Below the pieces are notes generated by a model. It worked only from the letters and a program-made list of their open reading frames with translations. It was not told the DNA's origin and did not search any database. From positions 1-64,000 of the forward strand of contig NZ_LAJC01000001.1 in assembly GCF_000981225.1 (NCBI RefSeq): a DNA stretch of 64,000 nucleotides. Reading direction: 5' to 3'. This DNA comes from Allosalinactinospora lopnorensis (GTDB lineage: Bacteria; Actinomycetota; Actinomycetes; Streptosporangiales; Streptosporangiaceae). Positions within the stretch are counted from its first letter, which is position 1. The number at the start of each line of letters is the position of its first letter. The translations under genes were made by a program, and so were the position numbers. Positions 45,311 to 53,176 of the stretch are shown here, piece by piece.

Positions 45311-45621
45311 ATGCTCTCTAGAGACACCGTCCACCACCCCAGCCTCGACGATGTCGACCTCGTCACCGTGCTCTCCGCCATGGGCGACCCCGCCCGCATG
45401 GCGATCATCACAACGTTGTCGGAGGTGGGCGGCGAGCAGCCGTGGAGCCGGTTCGCCCTGCCCATCGCGCCGTCCACCCTGAGCCACCACGTCAAGGTGC
45501 TGCGCAACGCCGGCATCGTACACAGCCGCCAGGAGGCACCCGCTGCTTTTTGTCCCTGCGCGGCGACGAACTCGACGAGCGCTTCCCCGGCCTCCTCGAC
45601 GCCGTCCTGCGGGCCGCCTGA
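45311..45621 (+). pseudogene. ArsR family regulator, frameshifted
   Basis: From ATG 45311 the frame reads DDVDLVTVLSAMGDPARMAIITTLSEVGGEQPWSRFALPIAPSTLSHHVKVLRNAGIVHSRQE, a complete ArsR winged helix. At about 45532-45540 (AGGAGGCACC) it becomes nonsense, while the -1 frame continues GTRCFLSLRGDELDERFPGLLDAVLRAA to a TGA at 45619-45621, which is the expected ArsR C-terminus. Restoring one G (GAG-GGC-ACC-CGC) repairs the gene to about 103 residues. The sequence lacks the metal-binding Cys of arsenic sensors (no ELCVCDL), so it senses something else. It is divergent from the LLM oxidoreductase and probably binds the 23-base palindrome. Confidence 0.82.
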
Positions 45622-46144: not shown

Positions 46145-47100
46145 TCACCCGGGCGGGGGCGCGGTGTAGCGCGCGGTCAGTTCGGCGCCGATCCGGGCGA
46201 GTTCGACCCGGACCGGTTCGGGCTCGACGACGTCGACGGTGGCGCCCCAGCCTGCGAGGTGCTGGGCGACCGCCAGGGGCGTCGGTGCCGCCACCCGGGC
46301 GCGGACCCGCCCGTCGCCGAGTTCGGCCTCGACCGTGCAGTGGCGGCCGAACTGGGCGCGCAGGACCGGCAGCAGTCCAGCGTCGATGAGCACACTCGCG
46401 GAGGTGAGCGAGCGTTGTCGCTCCACCTCCTCGACGACCCGATCCCACGCCCGCGGCAGCTCGAAACCAGCGGGCCGCTCCGCGGGAAGATCCGTCACGA
46501 CGCGTCGGCGATCCGGTCGACCCGGAAGGTCCGCTGCCCGTCCTCGGTTCCGGCCACCAGGTACCAGAGCTCGTCCTTGTCGACCAGGCCCCACGGGTCG
46601 ACGAGCCGCTCCGTCCGTTCCCGGGCCCGGTTCGCGTACACCAGTCGGACCCTGCGGCGGCGGACAACGGCGGTCTGCAGAAGCTCGACCAGGTCGGGGC
46701 GTTTCCGGCCACTCTCGCCCCACCGCGCCGGGTCGACCACGACGGCGCCGGCGGCCGCCTCGGCGTCGGTCCGGAACGTCTCGGGCAGGGCGCGCACGAG
46801 CTTGCGCAGCGCCGAGGTGACCTCCGGGTCGGCGGATGCCGCCGGGCCGGCGAGCAGGAACAGCGCCCGCGCCTCGGACGCGGTGAGCCCACTGAGGTCG
46901 GTCCGGGCGCCGCCCAGCAGCGACCACCCGCCGCCCCGCCCCGGCTGCGAATACACCGGGACGCCCGCGGTGGACAGCGCTTCGAGGTCGCGGCGGGCGG
47001 TGGCCACGGACACCTCGAGCTCGCCGGCCAGTTCGGACGCGGTCACCCGGCCGCGGGCCTGCATCAGCAGTAGGGCGGCGACGAGGCGGTCGGCACGCAT
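46145..47100 (-). pseudogene. WYL domain transcriptional regulator, frameshifted
   Basis: From ATG 47100 the frame gives an HTH_11 winged helix (MRADRLVAALLLMQARGRVTASELAGELEVSVATARRDLEALSTAGVPVYSQPGRGGGWSL), then the WYL domain (RRRRVRLVYANRARERTERLVDPWGLVDKDELWYLVAGTEDGQRTFRVDRIADAS) and stops at 46495. The next frame continues VTDLPAERPAGFELPRAWDRVVEEVERQ and the WYL C-terminal extension to 46145. At GCGTCGTGACG (46495-46505) one extra G, giving GCG-TCG-GTG-ACG, would restore a single gene of about 318 residues. WYL proteins bind nucleic-acid-like ligands and regulate many processes. Divergent from the VOC gene, a pairing common for this regulator type. Confidence 0.82.
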
Positions 47101-47208
47101 GAGTACAAGTCTGGCGGACAAAGTGCTCACTCGGTGCGCACTTTCCGGGCGGAGGATGGTCATACCACTCACCGCGGCGCCGACCGCCGCGAAGGGAAGG
47201 ATCCGCAG

Positions 47209-47625
47209 ATGTTGCGAGGACTCACGACCGTCACCTACTTCGCCGATGACCTGGCGGCGGCGAAGCGGTGGTACACCGAACTGCTGGGGATCGAGCCGTA
47301 CTTCGAGCACCCGATCGAGGGGCCTCCCGCGTATGTGGAGTTCCGCCTCGGCGACTACCAGCACGAGCTGGGGCTGATCGACAGCAGGTACGCCCCGCAC
47401 GGCTCGGCGGCCGGCCCGGCCGGCGCGGTGGTGTACTGGCACGTCGACGACGTGGCGGCGAGCTACGAGAGGCTGCTGTCCATGGGGGCGCAAGAGCACG
47501 AGTCGCCCGTCGACCGCGAGGCGGGCTTCGTCACCGCCTCCGTGGTCGACCCGTTCGGGAACATCCTCGGCGTCATGTACAACCCGCACTACCTGGACGT
47601 CCTCGCCACGGCCGGTAGGGCGTGA
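47209..47625 (+). CDS. VOC family protein (glyoxalase/bleomycin-resistance fold)
   Basis: 138 residues from ATG 47209, with GGGAAGGA upstream. LTTVTYFADDLAAAKRWYTELLGIEPYFE starts the first VOC module and VVYWHVDDVAASYERLLSMGAQEHESPVD the second; VVDPFGNILGVMYNPHY carries the terminal metal-site Gly/Asn region. Members with this pattern are small dimeric metalloproteins without assigned chemistry. Its divergent neighbour is a WYL regulator, which may control it. Confidence 0.9.
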   Translation: MLRGLTTVTYFADDLAAAKRWYTELLGIEPYFEHPIEGPPAYVEFRLGDYQHELGLIDSRYAPHGSAAGPAGAVVYWHVDDVAASYERLLSMGAQEHESPVDREAGFVTASVVDPFGNILGVMYNPHYLDVLATAGRA

Positions 47626-48180
47626 CCTGGGGTCCGGCCGGGGCGCCGGTGCCGCCCACCTCGCGCGCCCACGGCCTCGGCCGCTTCGGTGCGGCTGACC
47701 TCCTCGCCGCGGTCCACGACGTAGTGGTACAGGCGCCACCGCAGCGGGTGGAGCGTCCGGCTGCGCCGGCCGCCGGTGCCCCTGGACGCGCACGACCACC
47801 GCTACCTCACCACCAGGCTGGACCCGGTGACCAAGCCGATCGCCGAAACCCTGGAAGGGTACGCGTGGTAGCCCTCTCCCGGCGGGGCACACAAGATCCC
47901 CACCGCATCTTCATAGGTTCCTCACATTCGCCGTCCAGAGTGCGGGCGTTGGTTAAGGGCTCCCGGGGGAAGGGCGGCATGGGGACCAGAAGGCGCGCGA
48001 CGTCCGGCGGATTGCGGAGCTGGGCGGAGTACCGCCGCGGCAAGGCGGAAGAACGCCGCGGCGGACAGTGGAAGCCACGCGGGAACACGCGCCCCGAAGG
48101 CGGAACGGGGCGGGGCGGCCGATCGGCCGCGGCGTCGCCGCGATCGGGATCGCCCAGGCGAGCGCCCCCGATGGCGACGC
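47626..48180. other. Gene debris and unclear N-terminus of the following PBP
   Basis: The first 250 bases contain fragments of coding-looking sequence on both strands (separate entry). From 47979, with GGGGGAAGGG just upstream, an ATG-led basic frame begins (MGTRRRATSGGLRSWAEYRRGKAEERRGG) that looks like the cytoplasmic start of a PBP but is out of phase with the PBP frame, which itself reads plausibly from about 48110 (ADRPRRRRDRDRPGERPRWRRV). Confidence 0.45.
47640..47790 (-). pseudogene. Fragment of a winged-helix regulator
   Basis: On the minus strand one frame reads LHPLRWRLYHYVVDRGEEVSRTEAAEAVGA, the typical first helix pair of ArsR-like regulators (DPLRRRLYxYV ... VSRxEAAxAVG). It has no start codon in frame and dissolves into Arg/Pro sequence downstream. 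Just beyond it on the plus strand, DHRYLTTRLDPVTKPIAETLEGYAW before a TAG near 47870 also looks protein-like but follows an in-frame stop. Both are too short to be genes and may be remnants or victims of several indels. Confidence 0.4.
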
Positions 48181-50100
48181 GTGCTCTCGCGCACGTGGAA
48201 GGCCGCGGCGATCACGTTCCTGATCTGCGCCGGTACCGCGGGGGCCACCTTCGCCATCGCCTACCTGCAGACGCCCGACCCCGGGAGCCTGCGACCGCAG
48301 GCCAGCGCGGAACTGAAGGGCACCAGCATCACCTATGCCGACGGCAGCGAGGCGGTCGCCACGGGCGAGCTGCGCCGGATCCCGGTCAAACGGAACCGGA
48401 TACCGCCGACGGTGGTCAACGGGGTGCTCGCCGCGGAGCACCGCAACTTCTACACCGAGCCCGGGGTGTCCCCGGTCGGCCTGGCCCGCGCGGCGCTCTC
48501 CGGCGGCGCCTCCGGGGGCGGGTCGACCATCACCCAGCAGATGGCGCGCAACTACTATGACGTGCTCTCCCAGGAGCGCACCTACACGCGCAAGTTCAAG
48601 GAGATCCTGATCGCCATCAAGGTGGAGCGGAGCATGCCCCGCGACGACATCCTCACCACCTATCTCAACACGATCTACCTGGGCCGGCAGGCCTACGGGG
48701 TGCAGGCCTCCGCCCAGGCGTACTTCGGCAAGGACGTCGACGAGCTGGACCAGGCGGAGGGCGCGTTCATCGGCGCCGTCATCCAGCAGCCGGGCAACTT
48801 CGAGAACTTCGCGGCGGATCCGGAACTGGAGGAGGTCCTCCGGGAACGGTGGGACTACGTCGTGGAGGGCATGGTCGAGATGAACGAGGAGGACCCCGAT
48901 CTGGGTGTCCCCCGCGAGGAGGCCGACCGGCTGGAATTCCCCGACGTGGTCGACTACGACGCCGAAGGGCAGCTCGACGGTTACCTCGGCTACATCAAGA
49001 CCGCGGTGCAGAGAGAGCTGCGGGAACGGTACGGACTCTCCGACGCCGAGATCGCGGGCGGCGGTTACCAGGTGCGGACCTCACTGCGCGAGGATCTCAT
49101 GGACGCCGCCGAGGAGGCCGCGGACGAGGGCCTCGACGACATGCCGGAGCAGACCCGCGCCGGCCTCACTGCGGTCGACCCGCGGACCGGCGAGATCGTC
49201 GCGTTCAACGGGGGCGCCAACTCGCTCGAGGAGACGGACCCGTCCCTGACCGAGCGGACGCAGGCCGGAACGTCGTTCAAGCCCTACGTCCTGGCGACGG
49301 CCCTGGAACAGGGGCGAGACATCAACCGTCTGCTCAGCAGGGATGATGGCAGGGCCGCCAACGCGGAAGTCCCCAGAGGGCTGCTCCGGGGCGACAGCGA
49401 GACCGACGACGCCCTGTTCGTGAGTATGACCGAGGACGCGGGGCCGGAGGCGGTCGCCAACACCGCCAATTTCGCCGGTATCGCCCCGGAGCAGTTCGAG
49501 ACCGCCGCCCTGGAGCCGAGCATCGCCCTGGGCACCTACCAGGTCAGCGCCCTGGACCAGGCGAGCGGGTTCGCCACGTTCGCCAACGGCGGCGAGCACC
49601 GGCCCGCGCACATGGTCACCGAGCTGACCAGCGACGACGGCGACGTGCGCGAGCCCGCCGACGCCGCCCAGGTCCGCGACGGTGAGAACGTGGTGTCCGC
49701 GTCCACCGCGGCGGACATCACGCTCGCGTTGACCCTGCTCGCCGGGCAGGCGCGGTCCCTGTCGACGGAGCCGGACCCGATCGCCGAGCACGTGGTCGCC
49801 GGAATGCCCGGCAGCTACACCGGCGACCGCGCGGCCTGGTACGTCGGGTACACGCCGCGGTACTCGGTGGCGGTGAACCTCTTCCGCACCGACGGCGGCC
49901 AGTTGTCAGAACGCTTCTTCGCGCCTGACGTGGCGGGCAGCACCTGGACCTCGTTCATGGCCGCGGCCCTGGAGGGCGAGGAGCCGCAGTTCTTCCCCCA
50001 GCTGGACGCGTCCGGCGGGCAGGGCCCGCGTCCCCTGCCGAGGGCGGAGTCCAACACCGCCTCCCGCGCGACTCCGCCGGCCGGCGGGCGCACCGAGTGA
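48181..50100 (+). CDS. Class A PBP-like glycosyltransferase with a degenerate transpeptidase domain
   Basis: 639 residues from the GTG at 48181, but the true N-terminus probably lies upstream (see the preceding region). A transmembrane anchor (AAAITFLICAGTAGATFAIAYL) leads to a GT51 domain with AAEHRNFYTEPGVSPVGLARA, GGSTITQQMARNYY, RKFKEILIAIKVERSM and ILTTYLNTIYLGRQAYGVQASAQAYFGKD, so glycan-chain polymerisation looks possible. The transpeptidase domain is present in full length but its three motifs are gone: SxxK is TSFK in AGTSFKPYVLATAL, SxN is SMT in ALFVSMTEDAG with a short deletion, and KTG is MPG in VVAGMPGSYTGDRAAWYVGYTP. It should neither cross-link peptidoglycan nor bind beta-lactam covalently. 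It may act as a scaffold or regulated glycosyltransferase. Confidence 0.85.
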   Translation: MLSRTWKAAAITFLICAGTAGATFAIAYLQTPDPGSLRPQASAELKGTSITYADGSEAVATGELRRIPVKRNRIPPTVVNGVLAAEHRNFYTEPGVSPVGLARAALSGGASGGGSTITQQMARNYYDVLSQERTYTRKFKEILIAIKVERSMPRDDILTTYLNTIYLGRQAYGVQASAQAYFGKDVDELDQAEGAFIGAVIQQPGNFENFAADPELEEVLRERWDYVVEGMVEMNEEDPDLGVPREEADRLEFPDVVDYDAEGQLDGYLGYIKTAVQRELRERYGLSDAEIAGGGYQVRTSLREDLMDAAEEAADEGLDDMPEQTRAGLTAVDPRTGEIVAFNGGANSLEETDPSLTERTQAGTSFKPYVLATALEQGRDINRLLSRDDGRAANAEVPRGLLRGDSETDDALFVSMTEDAGPEAVANTANFAGIAPEQFETAALEPSIALGTYQVSALDQASGFATFANGGEHRPAHMVTELTSDDGDVREPADAAQVRDGENVVSASTAADITLALTLLAGQARSLSTEPDPIAEHVVAGMPGSYTGDRAAWYVGYTPRYSVAVNLFRTDGGQLSERFFAPDVAGSTWTSFMAAALEGEEPQFFPQLDASGGQGPRPLPRAESNTASRATPPAGGRTE

Positions 50101-50164: not shown

Positions 50165-52096
50165 TCAGCCGGGCGGATTCCGGTCGTGAGCGGGTTCCAG
50201 CGGCAGCCGCAGGGTGAACGTGGAGCCCTCGCCCGGCGTGCTGGCCGCCTCGGCGCCGCCGCCGTGCAGTTCGGCGATGTTGCGGACGATGGCCAGGCCG
50301 AGTCCGCTCCCGCCGGTCTGCCGGTTGCGCGACTTCTCCGCCCGCCAGAACCGGTTGAAGACGTGCGGCAGGTGCTCCGGCGCGATGCCCGTCCCGGTAT
50401 CGGCCACTTCGATGACGGCGTCGCCGTCCGACCGGTGCGCGCGCACCGTGACCCTGCCGGGTGCGGGGGTGTGCCGCAGCGCGTTGCCCAGCAGGTTGCC
50501 GATGGCCTGGAGCAGCCGGGACCGGTCGGCGACCAGCGGGATGTTCCCGCTGACCTCGGTGACCAGCTCCAGCCCGGCCGATTCGGCGCGCAGCCGATGG
50601 CTGGCGGCGGCCTGCTCGACGAGGTCACCGGCGTCCACGGATTCCGGGGACAACCGGAGCTTGCCGGCGTCGGCCAGCGCCAGCTCCTGCAGGTCGTCGA
50701 TGATGCGCTGGAGCAGCTGCGCCTCCTCGACCAGCATCGTCATCCGCTCCGGTTTCAGGTCGGCGACGCCGTCCTGGGCGGCCTCCAGCCAGCCGCGCAG
50801 GTTGCTCAACGGCGTGCGCAGCTCGTGGGAGACGTCGCTGACCATGGCCTTGCGCTGCTCTTCCAGTTGCTCCAGGTGCTCCGACATCTCGTTGAACGCC
50901 GAGGCCAGCCGGCCGATCTCCCCGGAGTCGCGGACACGGACGCGGGTGGAGCCCTCCCCGGCGCGCATCCGCTGCACCGCGTCGGTGAGCGCGCGCACCG
51001 GGCGGACCAGCCGGGTCGACACGGTCACGCTCACCCCCACGGTCAGCATCAGTACCAGCAGCACCACGCCGAAAACCCGCAGCGCGCCCTCGCGCGACAG
51101 CGCCAGGCCGGTTTCCTCGTCCTCCGCCGGGTGGTCGATGAACAGCAGCGCGGCCGGGGCGACATGGGGATCCAGCTGTTCGCGCCGGCTGGAGTCGACG
51201 CAGGCGGCCGCCCGCGGATCGACCTTGGAGGCGGTCGAGCCCCGGCCGGTCGGCGGCTCCCCTGCGTAGGACGGCGCGGGCTGCCCTCGGGGCCCCTCGG
51301 GCACCGGGGGTTCCGGCTCCTCCGCCTGGGCCCTCGGGGTGTCGCGCGCCACGGTGACGCCCGTGCCCGCGGTGCCGTCGATCCGGTAGTCGACATCCCC
51401 GATGCCGTGCGGCTCGATGCAGGCGTCGATGAGCTCGTTCAGGTCGTCGAGCGCATCCTGCTCGCTGTCGGTGGGCCGGTCCAGCGCGCCGAGCCCGCAG
51501 TACGCCCACGCGTCGGCCTCCACCTCACCCTCCGGCAGCTCGATGGCGGGGCGGCCGGTGGGTCTGACCTTCACCTTCGCGGGCAGTCCGTAGACGCCGT
51601 CGAGGCAGTCCGCGTTGGCCTGCGCCATCTTGCGCAGGCGGGACCGGTCCTCCCCGTCCAGCGCGAAGGGGCCGACCGCGCGGGGGTCGATGCGGTCGGC
51701 GCCCTCGGAGGCCAGGGTCACGTCCACCGCCAGCGGATCGACGACCGACGACGTCCGGGCCGGCAGTGGGGCGTCCCCGGCAGCGGAGTCCGCGAGGGGC
51801 CGCCGGTTCTCCGTGGTCAGCACGATCCGCCGGCCCGTTTCGGCCGCCAGCTCCTCGACCGTTTGCCGCACTCCGCTCCAGTCCGGATGGGCGGCCGCGT
51901 AGCCGACCAGGGTGTCGTGGATCTGGGTGTCCACGGTCAGGGTCTGGCCCTGTTGGGTGCTGAGAGACTCCGACGTTCCCTGTACGGCCAGCCATGCGGT
52001 GGCGGTGATGGAGCACACGGCCACCAGGACGGAACTCGCCAGCATGCGGGCGAGCAGGCTGTGCCGCAGTTTGCCGCTAGGCCGAGAGGGCGTCAT
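50165..52096 (-). CDS. Two-component sensor histidine kinase
   Basis: 643 residues. An N-terminal membrane helix (LLARMLASSVLVAVCSITATAWLAV) and a second (ALRVFGVVLLVLMLTVGVSVTVS) frame an extracellular sensor region of about 310 residues that is rich in Asp, Glu and Pro and has four or more Cys. Then come HAMP (LVRPVRALTDAVQRMRAGEGSTRVRVRDSGEIGRLASAFNEM), the H-box VSDVSHELRTPLSNLRGWLE, N-box GNLLGNALRHTPAPG, G1 VADTGTGIAPEHL, F-box FNRFWRAEKSR and G2 GGSGLGLAIV. The ATG lies inside the end of the response-regulator gene (20-base overlap), so the two are coupled. The signal is unknown; the large sensor domain suggests an extracytoplasmic stimulus. Confidence 0.93.
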   Translation of the reverse strand: MTPSRPSGKLRHSLLARMLASSVLVAVCSITATAWLAVQGTSESLSTQQGQTLTVDTQIHDTLVGYAAAHPDWSGVRQTVEELAAETGRRIVLTTENRRPLADSAAGDAPLPARTSSVVDPLAVDVTLASEGADRIDPRAVGPFALDGEDRSRLRKMAQANADCLDGVYGLPAKVKVRPTGRPAIELPEGEVEADAWAYCGLGALDRPTDSEQDALDDLNELIDACIEPHGIGDVDYRIDGTAGTGVTVARDTPRAQAEEPEPPVPEGPRGQPAPSYAGEPPTGRGSTASKVDPRAAACVDSSRREQLDPHVAPAALLFIDHPAEDEETGLALSREGALRVFGVVLLVLMLTVGVSVTVSTRLVRPVRALTDAVQRMRAGEGSTRVRVRDSGEIGRLASAFNEMSEHLEQLEEQRKAMVSDVSHELRTPLSNLRGWLEAAQDGVADLKPERMTMLVEEAQLLQRIIDDLQELALADAGKLRLSPESVDAGDLVEQAAASHRLRAESAGLELVTEVSGNIPLVADRSRLLQAIGNLLGNALRHTPAPGRVTVRAHRSDGDAVIEVADTGTGIAPEHLPHVFNRFWRAEKSRNRQTGGSGLGLAIVRNIAELHGGGAEAASTPGEGSTFTLRLPLEPAHDRNPPG

Positions 52097-52793
52097 CGGC
52101 GGTTCCGGTCAGCTTGTATCCGACCCCGTAGACGGTGAGCAGCCGCGACGGCGCCCGCGGATCGGGTTCCAGCTTCTTGCGCAGGTTCTTCACGTGTACA
52201 TCGATGGTGCGTTCGGTGATGAACCGGTCGATGCCGTGGATGTGCTCCAGTAGCTGGGCGCGGGTGAAGACCTGTCCGGGCCGGGCCGCGAGCGCGGCGA
52301 GCATCTGGAACTCCGCGGGAGTGCACTCCACGGGCCTGCCATCGAGGAGCAGGGTGTGCCGGGCCGGGTCGACCGTGATCGGGCCCGCGCGCAGTATCCG
52401 GTCGGCGCCGTTCAGGAGGCCCTCCTGCCGGCGCGACCGGCGCAGCAGGGTGCGGACCCGGGCCATCAGCTCGCGCGGGCTGTAGGGCTTGGTGACGTAG
52501 TCGTCCGCGCCGAGGTCCAGCCCCGCCAGCAGGTCCTCCTCAGTGGAGCGCGCGGTGAGCATCAGCACCGCGACATCGGACTCGGCGCGCAGGACCCGGC
52601 AGACGTCGAGCCCGCTCATGCCCGGCATCATCACGTCCAGCATGATCAGGTCCGGGCGGCTGCGGCGGTTCTCCTCGACCACGGCGCGGCCGTCGTGAAC
52701 GGCGAGCACGAGATGTCCCTCGCGTTCCAGGTAGCGCCGGATCAGGTCGGCCTGGTTCACATCGTCCTCGGCGATCAGCACATGGGCGCACAC
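52077..52793 (-). CDS. OmpR/PhoB-type response regulator
   Basis: About 238 residues from a GTG at 52793 preceded by GGAGAG; an ATG nine codons upstream lacks a spaced ribosome site. Receiver domain: VLIAEDDVNQADLIRRYLE (acidic pair), LIMLDVMMPGMSGLDVCRVL (phospho-acceptor Asp), MLTARSTEEDLLAGLDLGADDYVTKPYSPRELMARV (Thr and Lys). The winged-helix output domain follows (LLLDGRPVECTPAEFQMLAALAARPGQVFTRAQLLEHIHGIDRFITERTIDVHVKNLRKKL). It is the first gene of a coupled pair with the histidine kinase. Regulated genes cannot be inferred. Confidence 0.94.
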   Translation of the reverse strand: MCAHVLIAEDDVNQADLIRRYLEREGHLVLAVHDGRAVVEENRRSRPDLIMLDVMMPGMSGLDVCRVLRAESDVAVLMLTARSTEEDLLAGLDLGADDYVTKPYSPRELMARVRTLLRRSRRQEGLLNGADRILRAGPITVDPARHTLLLDGRPVECTPAEFQMLAALAARPGQVFTRAQLLEHIHGIDRFITERTIDVHVKNLRKKLEPDPRAPSRLLTVYGVGYKLTGTADDALSA

Positions 52794-53176
52794 GTCGGCG
52801 TCTCTCCACTCTCTGCTCATACTCCAGTCGCGGCCCGGAGTGGGCGGGAGGATCGATGGTATGCGCCTTGTGCGGGGTGCCGGAGCCGGACGGGACGGAC
52901 GAGGCGAAAGCACCGGCGCCGCCGGAGGGCGCCGGGGCAGGTCGGGCCGACCGCCGCGCGCACTCGGGCACGGGGACCGGCCGCCACTCCGTCGGCCCTA
53001 CATGTGACTTTGTCCGAACGGGGTCCCTCGCCGAGAGCGCGCCCGGCGCCGCGGGGTGTGTACCGGATGCCCCGTCGCCGCTGCCTGTACCGGCCCGCCG
53101 TTCCAGGCAGCCCTCCGGCGACAGGGCCACGCGCGTGCGTTCGCCGGTCCCGGGGTCCCCGGGGCCGCCGGAACCG
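52794..53176. other. Intergenic region upstream of the two-component system
   Basis: About 380 bases, GC-rich, no supported gene; it contains the 5' side of the response regulator (52794-52860) and the 3' flank of the MazG gene. I see no clear dyad or terminator. Confidence 0.4.

Follow-up and report, generated by a model that had tools for sequence, protein, structure and literature searches.

Introduction

In actinomycetes, bifunctional class A penicillin-binding proteins (PBPs) such as Mycobacterium tuberculosis PonA1 combine a membrane anchor with a GT51 glycosyltransferase (GT) domain and a transpeptidase (TP) fold. L,D-transpeptidases cross-link the cell wall by another route, one that many β-lactams leave unblocked. 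Several departures from the bifunctional scheme have been described. In Streptomyces, 13 class A PBPs without the SxxK motif are named among 100 proteins from 24 species (names counted here); SxN and KTG are said to be 'mostly conserved' in these proteins, which in the author's view are able to act as PBPs (Ogawara, 2016; PMC6273383). In Escherichia coli, a TP-dead class A PBP has been engineered as a test of whether GT activity is enough by itself in the presence of β-lactams; this PBP1b(S510A), its TP serine exchanged, continues to provide the GT activity on which synthesis with the L,D-transpeptidase YcbB depends under these drugs (PMC5089857). Regulation of both enzyme types by one pathway is also known: in S. 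coelicolor, the envelope-stress two-component system CseBC acts on class A PBPs and L,D-transpeptidases through σE (PMC6767563).

Here we describe a class A PBP encoded in a 64,000-nucleotide stretch of the Allosalinactinospora lopnorensis genome (the window), in which the penicillin-binding motifs have been replaced and which, with its orthologues, we refer to as pseudo-TP PBP. It shares the membrane anchor and the GT51 and TP-fold architecture of PonA1 and of its own intact paralogues, but differs from them in being without the three penicillin-binding motifs, in the loss of the C-terminal tail of the paralogues and in its promoter. The SxxK-less Streptomyces proteins are set apart from it by their description, in which SxN and KTG are mostly kept and, in the section concerned, neither a promoter nor a two-component link is mentioned (PMC6273383). 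Monofunctional GT51 enzymes of the MtgA/SgtB type would resemble it in acting only as glycosyltransferases, but the window protein retains a full TP-fold domain. While the pairing of PBP1b(S510A) with YcbB (PMC5089857) concerns a laboratory mutant, the presumably dead TP domain of the window type is natural and conserved, and its L,D-transpeptidase partner is putative. Likewise, the CseBC link runs via σE (PMC6767563), whereas the regulator gene of the window type adjoins its putative target, a pseudo-TP PBP gene, in several genomes. Open-licence full-text literature, judged by titles and the beginnings of abstracts, yielded nothing on a pseudo-TP PBP or on this gene pair, nor on a selected loss of all three motifs or a link of such a protein to an L,D-transpeptidase regulon.

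Domain Architecture and Motifs of the Window Protein

The gene is an open frame at 48181–50100 on the forward strand (GTG start, stop codon included) that encodes 639 amino acids and is free of internal stops. The GT51 domain (48367–48873, +) matches PF00912 with an E value of 2.9e-48 over residues 63–231 and contains two glutamates, E86 (48436–48438) and E141 (48601–48603), that are invariant in 43 aligned rows, which upholds the statement of the preliminary description that this domain is intact. Both correspond in the alignment to glutamates of PBP1A chains of known structure and are, we assume, the catalytic GT51 glutamates. The TP-fold domain follows C-terminally (49153–49980, +; residues 325–600, the span used for the rate tests). 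Its match to PF00905 is weak (E 9.1e-12; 45.2 bits with a cut-off of 22.1) and covers residues 437–579 only, against an E value of 5.5e-32 over residues 329–570 for an intact paralogue of the same genome.

In an alignment with 44 other rows, from which the motif columns were read, the SxxK position is occupied by TSFK (T364-S-F-K367; 49270–49281, +), the SxN position by TDD (T408-D-D410; 49402–49410, +) and the KTG position by MPG (M542-P-G544; 49804–49812, +). Counted on the sequences, the intact paralogue has 12 more residues between SxxK and SxN. The preliminary description had already read TSFK and MPG; the SMT that it assigned to SxN (residues 415–417), however, lies seven residues beyond the aligned motif. 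It had also called the domain wholly dead, and the loss of all three motifs agrees with this, the domain being catalytically dead as far as its sequence allows one to predict. By descent and architecture the protein is a class A PBP, with GT51 and both glutamates and with a TP fold C-terminal to GT51 (as indicated by PF00905, the structural model and the PonA1 match), but judged from its TSFK, TDD and MPG it is not a bifunctional one. It does not fall among the monofunctional peptidoglycan glycosyltransferases either, since it scores 85.4 bits with NCBIfam TIGR02070, below the cut-off of 182.65, and the TP fold is present. The source genome contains four GT51 genes. The long C-terminal tail of the paralogues, rich in proline, glycine and acidic residues, is gone from the pseudo-TP PBPs in the alignment.

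An AlphaFold2 model of the window protein, computed from a 43-row alignment, has a mean pLDDT of 83.3. Within the TP region pLDDT exceeds 85 except at about 381–410 (39–59), 521–550 (71–83) and 571–580 (80); the model is poor at 388–400 and in the tail, and GT residues 101–140 reach just 67–71. The TP part of the model matches PonA1 (5cxw) with Z 38.9 and rmsd 2.6 over 324 residues, a likeness to be read with the bias toward the intact fold that comes from the intact relatives in the input alignment.

N-Terminus and Frame Break of the Window Copy

Four of the six orthologues begin with MGNRRR, MGSRRR, MGRRRR or MGRRGR, matching the MGTRRR.. encoded from an ATG at 47979 of the window; such a start was not found in the two others, G072 and G101. 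From these orthologue starts, the N-terminus is probably encoded by 47979–48180 (+), in a frame that differs from that of the remainder. In fact, ATG 47979 and GTG 48181 lie in different frames (47979 mod 3 = 0; 48181 mod 3 = 1), so that either the window copy is frame-broken between about 48000 and 48180 or GTG 48181 is the start, and a protein initiated there would still be anchored. Two other genes of this draft assembly are frame-split as well: the WYL regulator upstream (46148–47892), with its HTH and WYL parts in 46498–47892 (−) and its WCX part in 46148–46927 (−), and a further class A PBP (L037:6800–8883, −), whose KTG region lies in a different frame from its SxxK and SxN regions. An assembly error is therefore plausible for the window PBP too, and the break is possibly a real mutation. 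An ArsR-type helix-turn-helix gene at 45311 (−) also appears shortened, by eye only, and this, the split WYL gene and the PBP frame break together suggest indel errors in the source assembly.

Distribution, Motif Loss and Phylogeny of the Orthologues

A profile scan of 341 genomes of the family, with scoring confined to the three top candidates of each genome, returned seven proteins with at least 1050 bits, the next scoring 892; six of the seven were rows of the profile and that of G190 was new. The seven holders belong to three genera: the window genome (G000), both genomes of a second genus (G021 and G075) and four of the six of a third (G072, G101, G008 and G190, of which G072 was taken as Nocardiopsis potens DSM 45234, G008 as N. 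suaedae LSu2-4 and G190 as N. endophytica RSe5-2). An even draw of 394 genomes of the class gave no new member among the matches listed, in which the three above 1,000 bits were already known and the next reached 876.

Motif loss is common to all members, with replacements that vary. The SxxK position reads TSFK in the window, TAFK in G072 and G101, PAFK in G008 and G190, ATFQ in G021 and ATFR in G075; its first residue (Thr in three members, Pro in two and Ala in two) is never serine. The KTG position is MPG in the window, G072 and G101, VTG in G021, VAG in G075, and VSG or GYG, depending on the alignment, in G008 and G190. The asparagine of SxN is missing from all seven. Of 78 named relatives, all but three have the full set of motifs (75), and those three belong to the pseudo-TP clade. 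Orthologues retaining SxxK and KTG would have spoken for a decayed single copy, as the preliminary description pointed out; in the rows examined, only paralogues keep these motifs. Two such intact paralogues lie side by side in each of the six other member genomes, whereas the single intact close paralogue in G000 is located on a different contig from the window gene.

Six members form a single clade both in a GT-only tree (96/91) and in a TP-only tree (99/99), each of 44 rows and built after removal of the second half of the frame-split L037 PBP. Within this clade TP branches are far longer than GT branches. All seven members have a full-length, stop-free TP region, and at two TP columns (E445 and S447) the residue fixed in these seven differs from the one fixed in 13 intact paralogues. 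A single decayed copy or a sequencing artefact in the TP motifs was rejected as an explanation because the losses are common to seven genomes, and independent losses in two branches are unsupported because both trees recover one clade, although the replacement residues differ.

Selection on the TP Domain

Selection was estimated by pairwise codon maximum likelihood with F3x4 frequencies, which were needed because third-position GC is 0.94–0.99; NG86 estimates, biased by this composition, were used for ranking alone. For the TP domain, ω is 0.258 in G072–G101, 0.081 in G008–G190 and 0.081 in G021–G075, and ω = 1 is rejected in these three close orthologue pairs, to which the quoted values are confined and none of which includes the window copy, with LR of 18.3, 104.6 and 116.1, respectively. 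For the intact paralogues in these pairs of genomes, ω is 0.030–0.173. Pairs of the window copy with G072, G008 and G021 also reject ω = 1 (LR 111.9, 139.6 and 134.1), but they are near or at full saturation and their ω carries no weight; several distant pairs, those of the window included, reached the upper limit of t and are not quoted. The dead TP domain is thus constrained, with constraint relaxed about twofold, and within the clade it evolves faster than the GT domain. With its occurrence in seven genomes of three genera, six members in one clade and purifying selection in three close pairs, the view that this is a maintained pseudo-transpeptidase is supported.

A Promoter Element in Common with L,D-Transpeptidase Genes

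The intergenic stretches of 15 two-component-linked L,D-transpeptidase loci have in common an element of three spaced CACA-type repeats and a conserved downstream block. A 48-column weight matrix was built from these 15 promoters only; in leave-one-out scoring they reach 31–62 bits, a range to be read knowing that the motif positions were set with the full set of 15, which includes several closely related sequences. Over both strands of the 64-kb window, the top site of this matrix is 47896–47943 (+), directly upstream of the PBP gene, with 35.5 bits, and the next non-overlapping site has 1.1 bits. Simulated controls (20 sequences of 64 kb) peak at 15.0 bits, none of 300 column-permuted matrices reaches 35.5 bits, and matrices from three subsets of the loci recover the same site. 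The window PBP gene is thus preceded by the same kind of element as the L,D-transpeptidase genes that lie beside two-component systems.

The same holds for the orthologues. For each of the six other PBP genes, the strongest site within 700 nt upstream is also the strongest of the whole locus, with 59.1 bits in G075, 36.7 in G021, 32.1 in G008, 31.2 in G190, 25.2 in G101 and 24.3 in G072. For the two weakest, a 32-column matrix gives 16.9 (G072) and 16.6 bits (G101) against a simulated maximum of 15.7 (20 sequences of 64 kb). In G021 the element is 22 bits below that of the sister genome G075. Across 93 other loci (3.09 million positions) just three sites exceed 15 bits, all before pseudo-TP PBPs and all in named copies of genomes already counted, and no element above 15 bits was found near the intact class A PBP copies examined. 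The distance from the end of the element to the start codon is 35 nt in the window (ATG 47979), 36 nt in G008 and G190, 88 nt in G075 and 90 nt in G021. A search with a 23-nt core, allowing at most three mismatches, finds two occurrences in the 5.9-Mb source genome, one of them the PBP promoter; it finds the core in 5 of 16 chosen genomes and misses five of the seven PBP genomes (G021, G072, G101, G008 and G190). The element at 47896–47943 may be a sigma-factor promoter instead of a response-regulator site.

The Two-Component Neighbour and the L,D-Transpeptidase Slot

Tail to tail with the PBP gene, their 3' ends 64 bp apart, lies a gene for a sensor histidine kinase with a long N-terminal region (50165–52096, −; HAMP, HisKA and HATPase_c by Pfam), followed by one for an OmpR-type response regulator (52077–52913, −; Response_reg and Trans_reg_C by Pfam). 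In G075, G008 and G190, relatives of this kinase and regulator also lie beside the pseudo-TP PBP gene, in divergent orientation, unlike the window, where the PBP is on the kinase side. The PBP is thus linked to a sensor kinase in four of the seven genomes. The PBP-linked two-component genes do not form one clade (20 rows, one outgroup; at least two changes), so that the linkage had more than one origin, unless the PBP gene or the two-component system has moved. Beyond the two-component system, no gene order around the PBP is conserved across the three genera in stretches of 20–26 kb (12 kb for G072).

Kinase relatives were sought in 36 chosen genomes, and 18 strong loci that are not beside a pseudo-TP PBP were examined. 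In 15 of these 18, the same divergent slot is occupied by an L,D-transpeptidase (YkuD) gene, identified by YkuD domain match in 8 cases and by similarity to those in the others, two having been scanned directly. The remaining three are L190 (genome G045; kinase only) and L199 and L200, which harbour less similar systems. This slot L,D-transpeptidase had no match in G000, G021, G075 and G008 among the 24 chosen genomes searched, and in G190 only a match of 26% identity (E 7e-4); it is present in G072 and G101, in which the PBP is unlinked to the two-component system. Other YkuD genes number two to three in each of G000, G021, G075, G008 and G190 (22 chosen genomes scanned). Among the 36 genomes, 13 have a close kinase relative and no pseudo-TP PBP, and G021 retains the PBP and has no close kinase relative; it shares flanking genes with its sister G075, yet is without the PBP-adjacent kinase and regulator of that genome.

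Possible Function of the Pseudo-TP PBPs

From what is known of GT51 and SxxK enzymes, a protein of this kind should polymerise lipid II and escape penicillin acylation. The element, the shared slot and the precedents from E. coli and S. coelicolor lead us to read it as an inducible polymerase, and, among the roles suggested in the preliminary description (scaffold, muropeptide sensor or β-lactam-insensitive glycan polymerase), the promoter and two-component evidence favours the last. We therefore lean, with modest confidence, toward the window protein being a stress-induced, β-lactam-blind glycan polymerase within an L,D-transpeptidase regulon. As such, the membrane-anchored protein would polymerise glycan strands via its intact GT51 domain and would no longer cross-link or bind β-lactams, the TP fold being retained, probably because it supports the GT domain structurally or allosterically. 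The gene would belong to the regulon of the adjoining OmpR-type system, whose usual target in relatives would be an L,D-transpeptidase, and it may have taken over, or may share, the L,D-transpeptidase promoter. On sensing wall damage, the kinase would make the cell produce a polymerase beyond the reach of β-lactams, while L,D-transpeptidases or other PBPs would provide the cross-links. Since the paired L,D-transpeptidase is missing where the PBP fills its slot, G072 and G101 are the only genomes in which the two could cooperate; in the others the two to three further YkuD enzymes of each genome would have to serve. This absence of the slot enzyme where the PBP has its place speaks against the reading, as do the G021 PBP without its kinase, the weak elements of G072 and G101, the five PBP genomes missed with the 23-nt core, the frame break of the window copy, the chance that the element is a sigma-factor promoter, and the faster evolution of the TP domain, which fits slow decay too. 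A more far-reaching proposal, possible but held only tentatively, is that the two-component system swapped its divergent target, an L,D-transpeptidase in most relatives examined and a pseudo-TP class A PBP in others, that both outputs serve β-lactam-proof wall synthesis and that the dead TP domain now regulates the GT domain of the same protein non-catalytically.

Slow decay, in which the gene survives for its GT activity while a roleless TP domain is on its way to being lost, leaving a monofunctional glycosyltransferase, would account for the much longer TP than GT branches in the clade, for a TP ω about twice that of the intact paralogues, for the weak Pfam match and the vanished C-terminal tail, and for the broken frame of the window copy. 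However, ω is 0.08–0.26 with neutrality rejected in all three close pairs, and each of the seven members has a full-length, stop-free TP region with two columns fixed differently from the 13 intact paralogues. The good predicted fold over most of the domain points the same way, though the input alignment includes intact relatives, and overall we consider decay unlikely. Constraint on a dead domain would equally be expected if the pseudo-TP domain were a sensor or scaffold that bound stem peptides, a hydrolase or the adjoining kinase non-catalytically and reported wall status to the two-component system, and the linkage to a sensor kinase in four of seven genomes, via two-component lineages that are not one clade, would fit this as well. 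Such a role is less probable still, because the PBP gene bears the promoter element of a target gene, because the 13 of 36 genomes with a kinase relative and no pseudo-TP PBP indicate that the PBP is dispensable for sensing there, and because the two are unlinked in G072 and G101. Residual catalysis, that is, acylation through Thr364 or Ser365 in a low-affinity, β-lactam-resistant transpeptidase, draws on the Ser365 and Lys367 that the window copy retains; with PAFK, TAFK, ATFQ and ATFR in the orthologues, none of the Thr, Ser and Lys residues is kept throughout, SxN and KTG are likewise lost, and we regard it as very improbable.

The pseudo-TP PBPs constitute a natural, selected lineage of class A PBPs predicted to be TP-dead, with intact paralogues in the same cells, that is, a counterpart of what was engineered in the E. 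coli mutant, and the promoter ties this lineage to an L,D-transpeptidase regulon. Two questions thereby become testable: what role a TP fold has without catalysis, and whether actinomycetes possess a dedicated β-lactam-blind polymerase. Moreover, annotation as 'PBP' from the domain alone can mask a protein that, to judge by its motifs, should not bind penicillin.

Further Observations on the Related Loci

The divergent arrangement of OmpR-type two-component genes and a YkuD gene, with its shared promoter element, is conserved at 15 loci (L183–L189 and L191–L198) in 14 genomes of the family and is itself a candidate module for wall stress. At one of them (L194:3149–5031, −; genome G158) a tandem pair of YkuD genes lies beside the two-component system. 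In G045, taken as Marinactinospora thermotolerans, no regulator or YkuD gene was found near the kinase relative of locus L190; beside this kinase lies a gene for a PF00905 protein (L190:8111–9046, −) with ETFE where STFK is expected, which is presumably class D β-lactamase-like.
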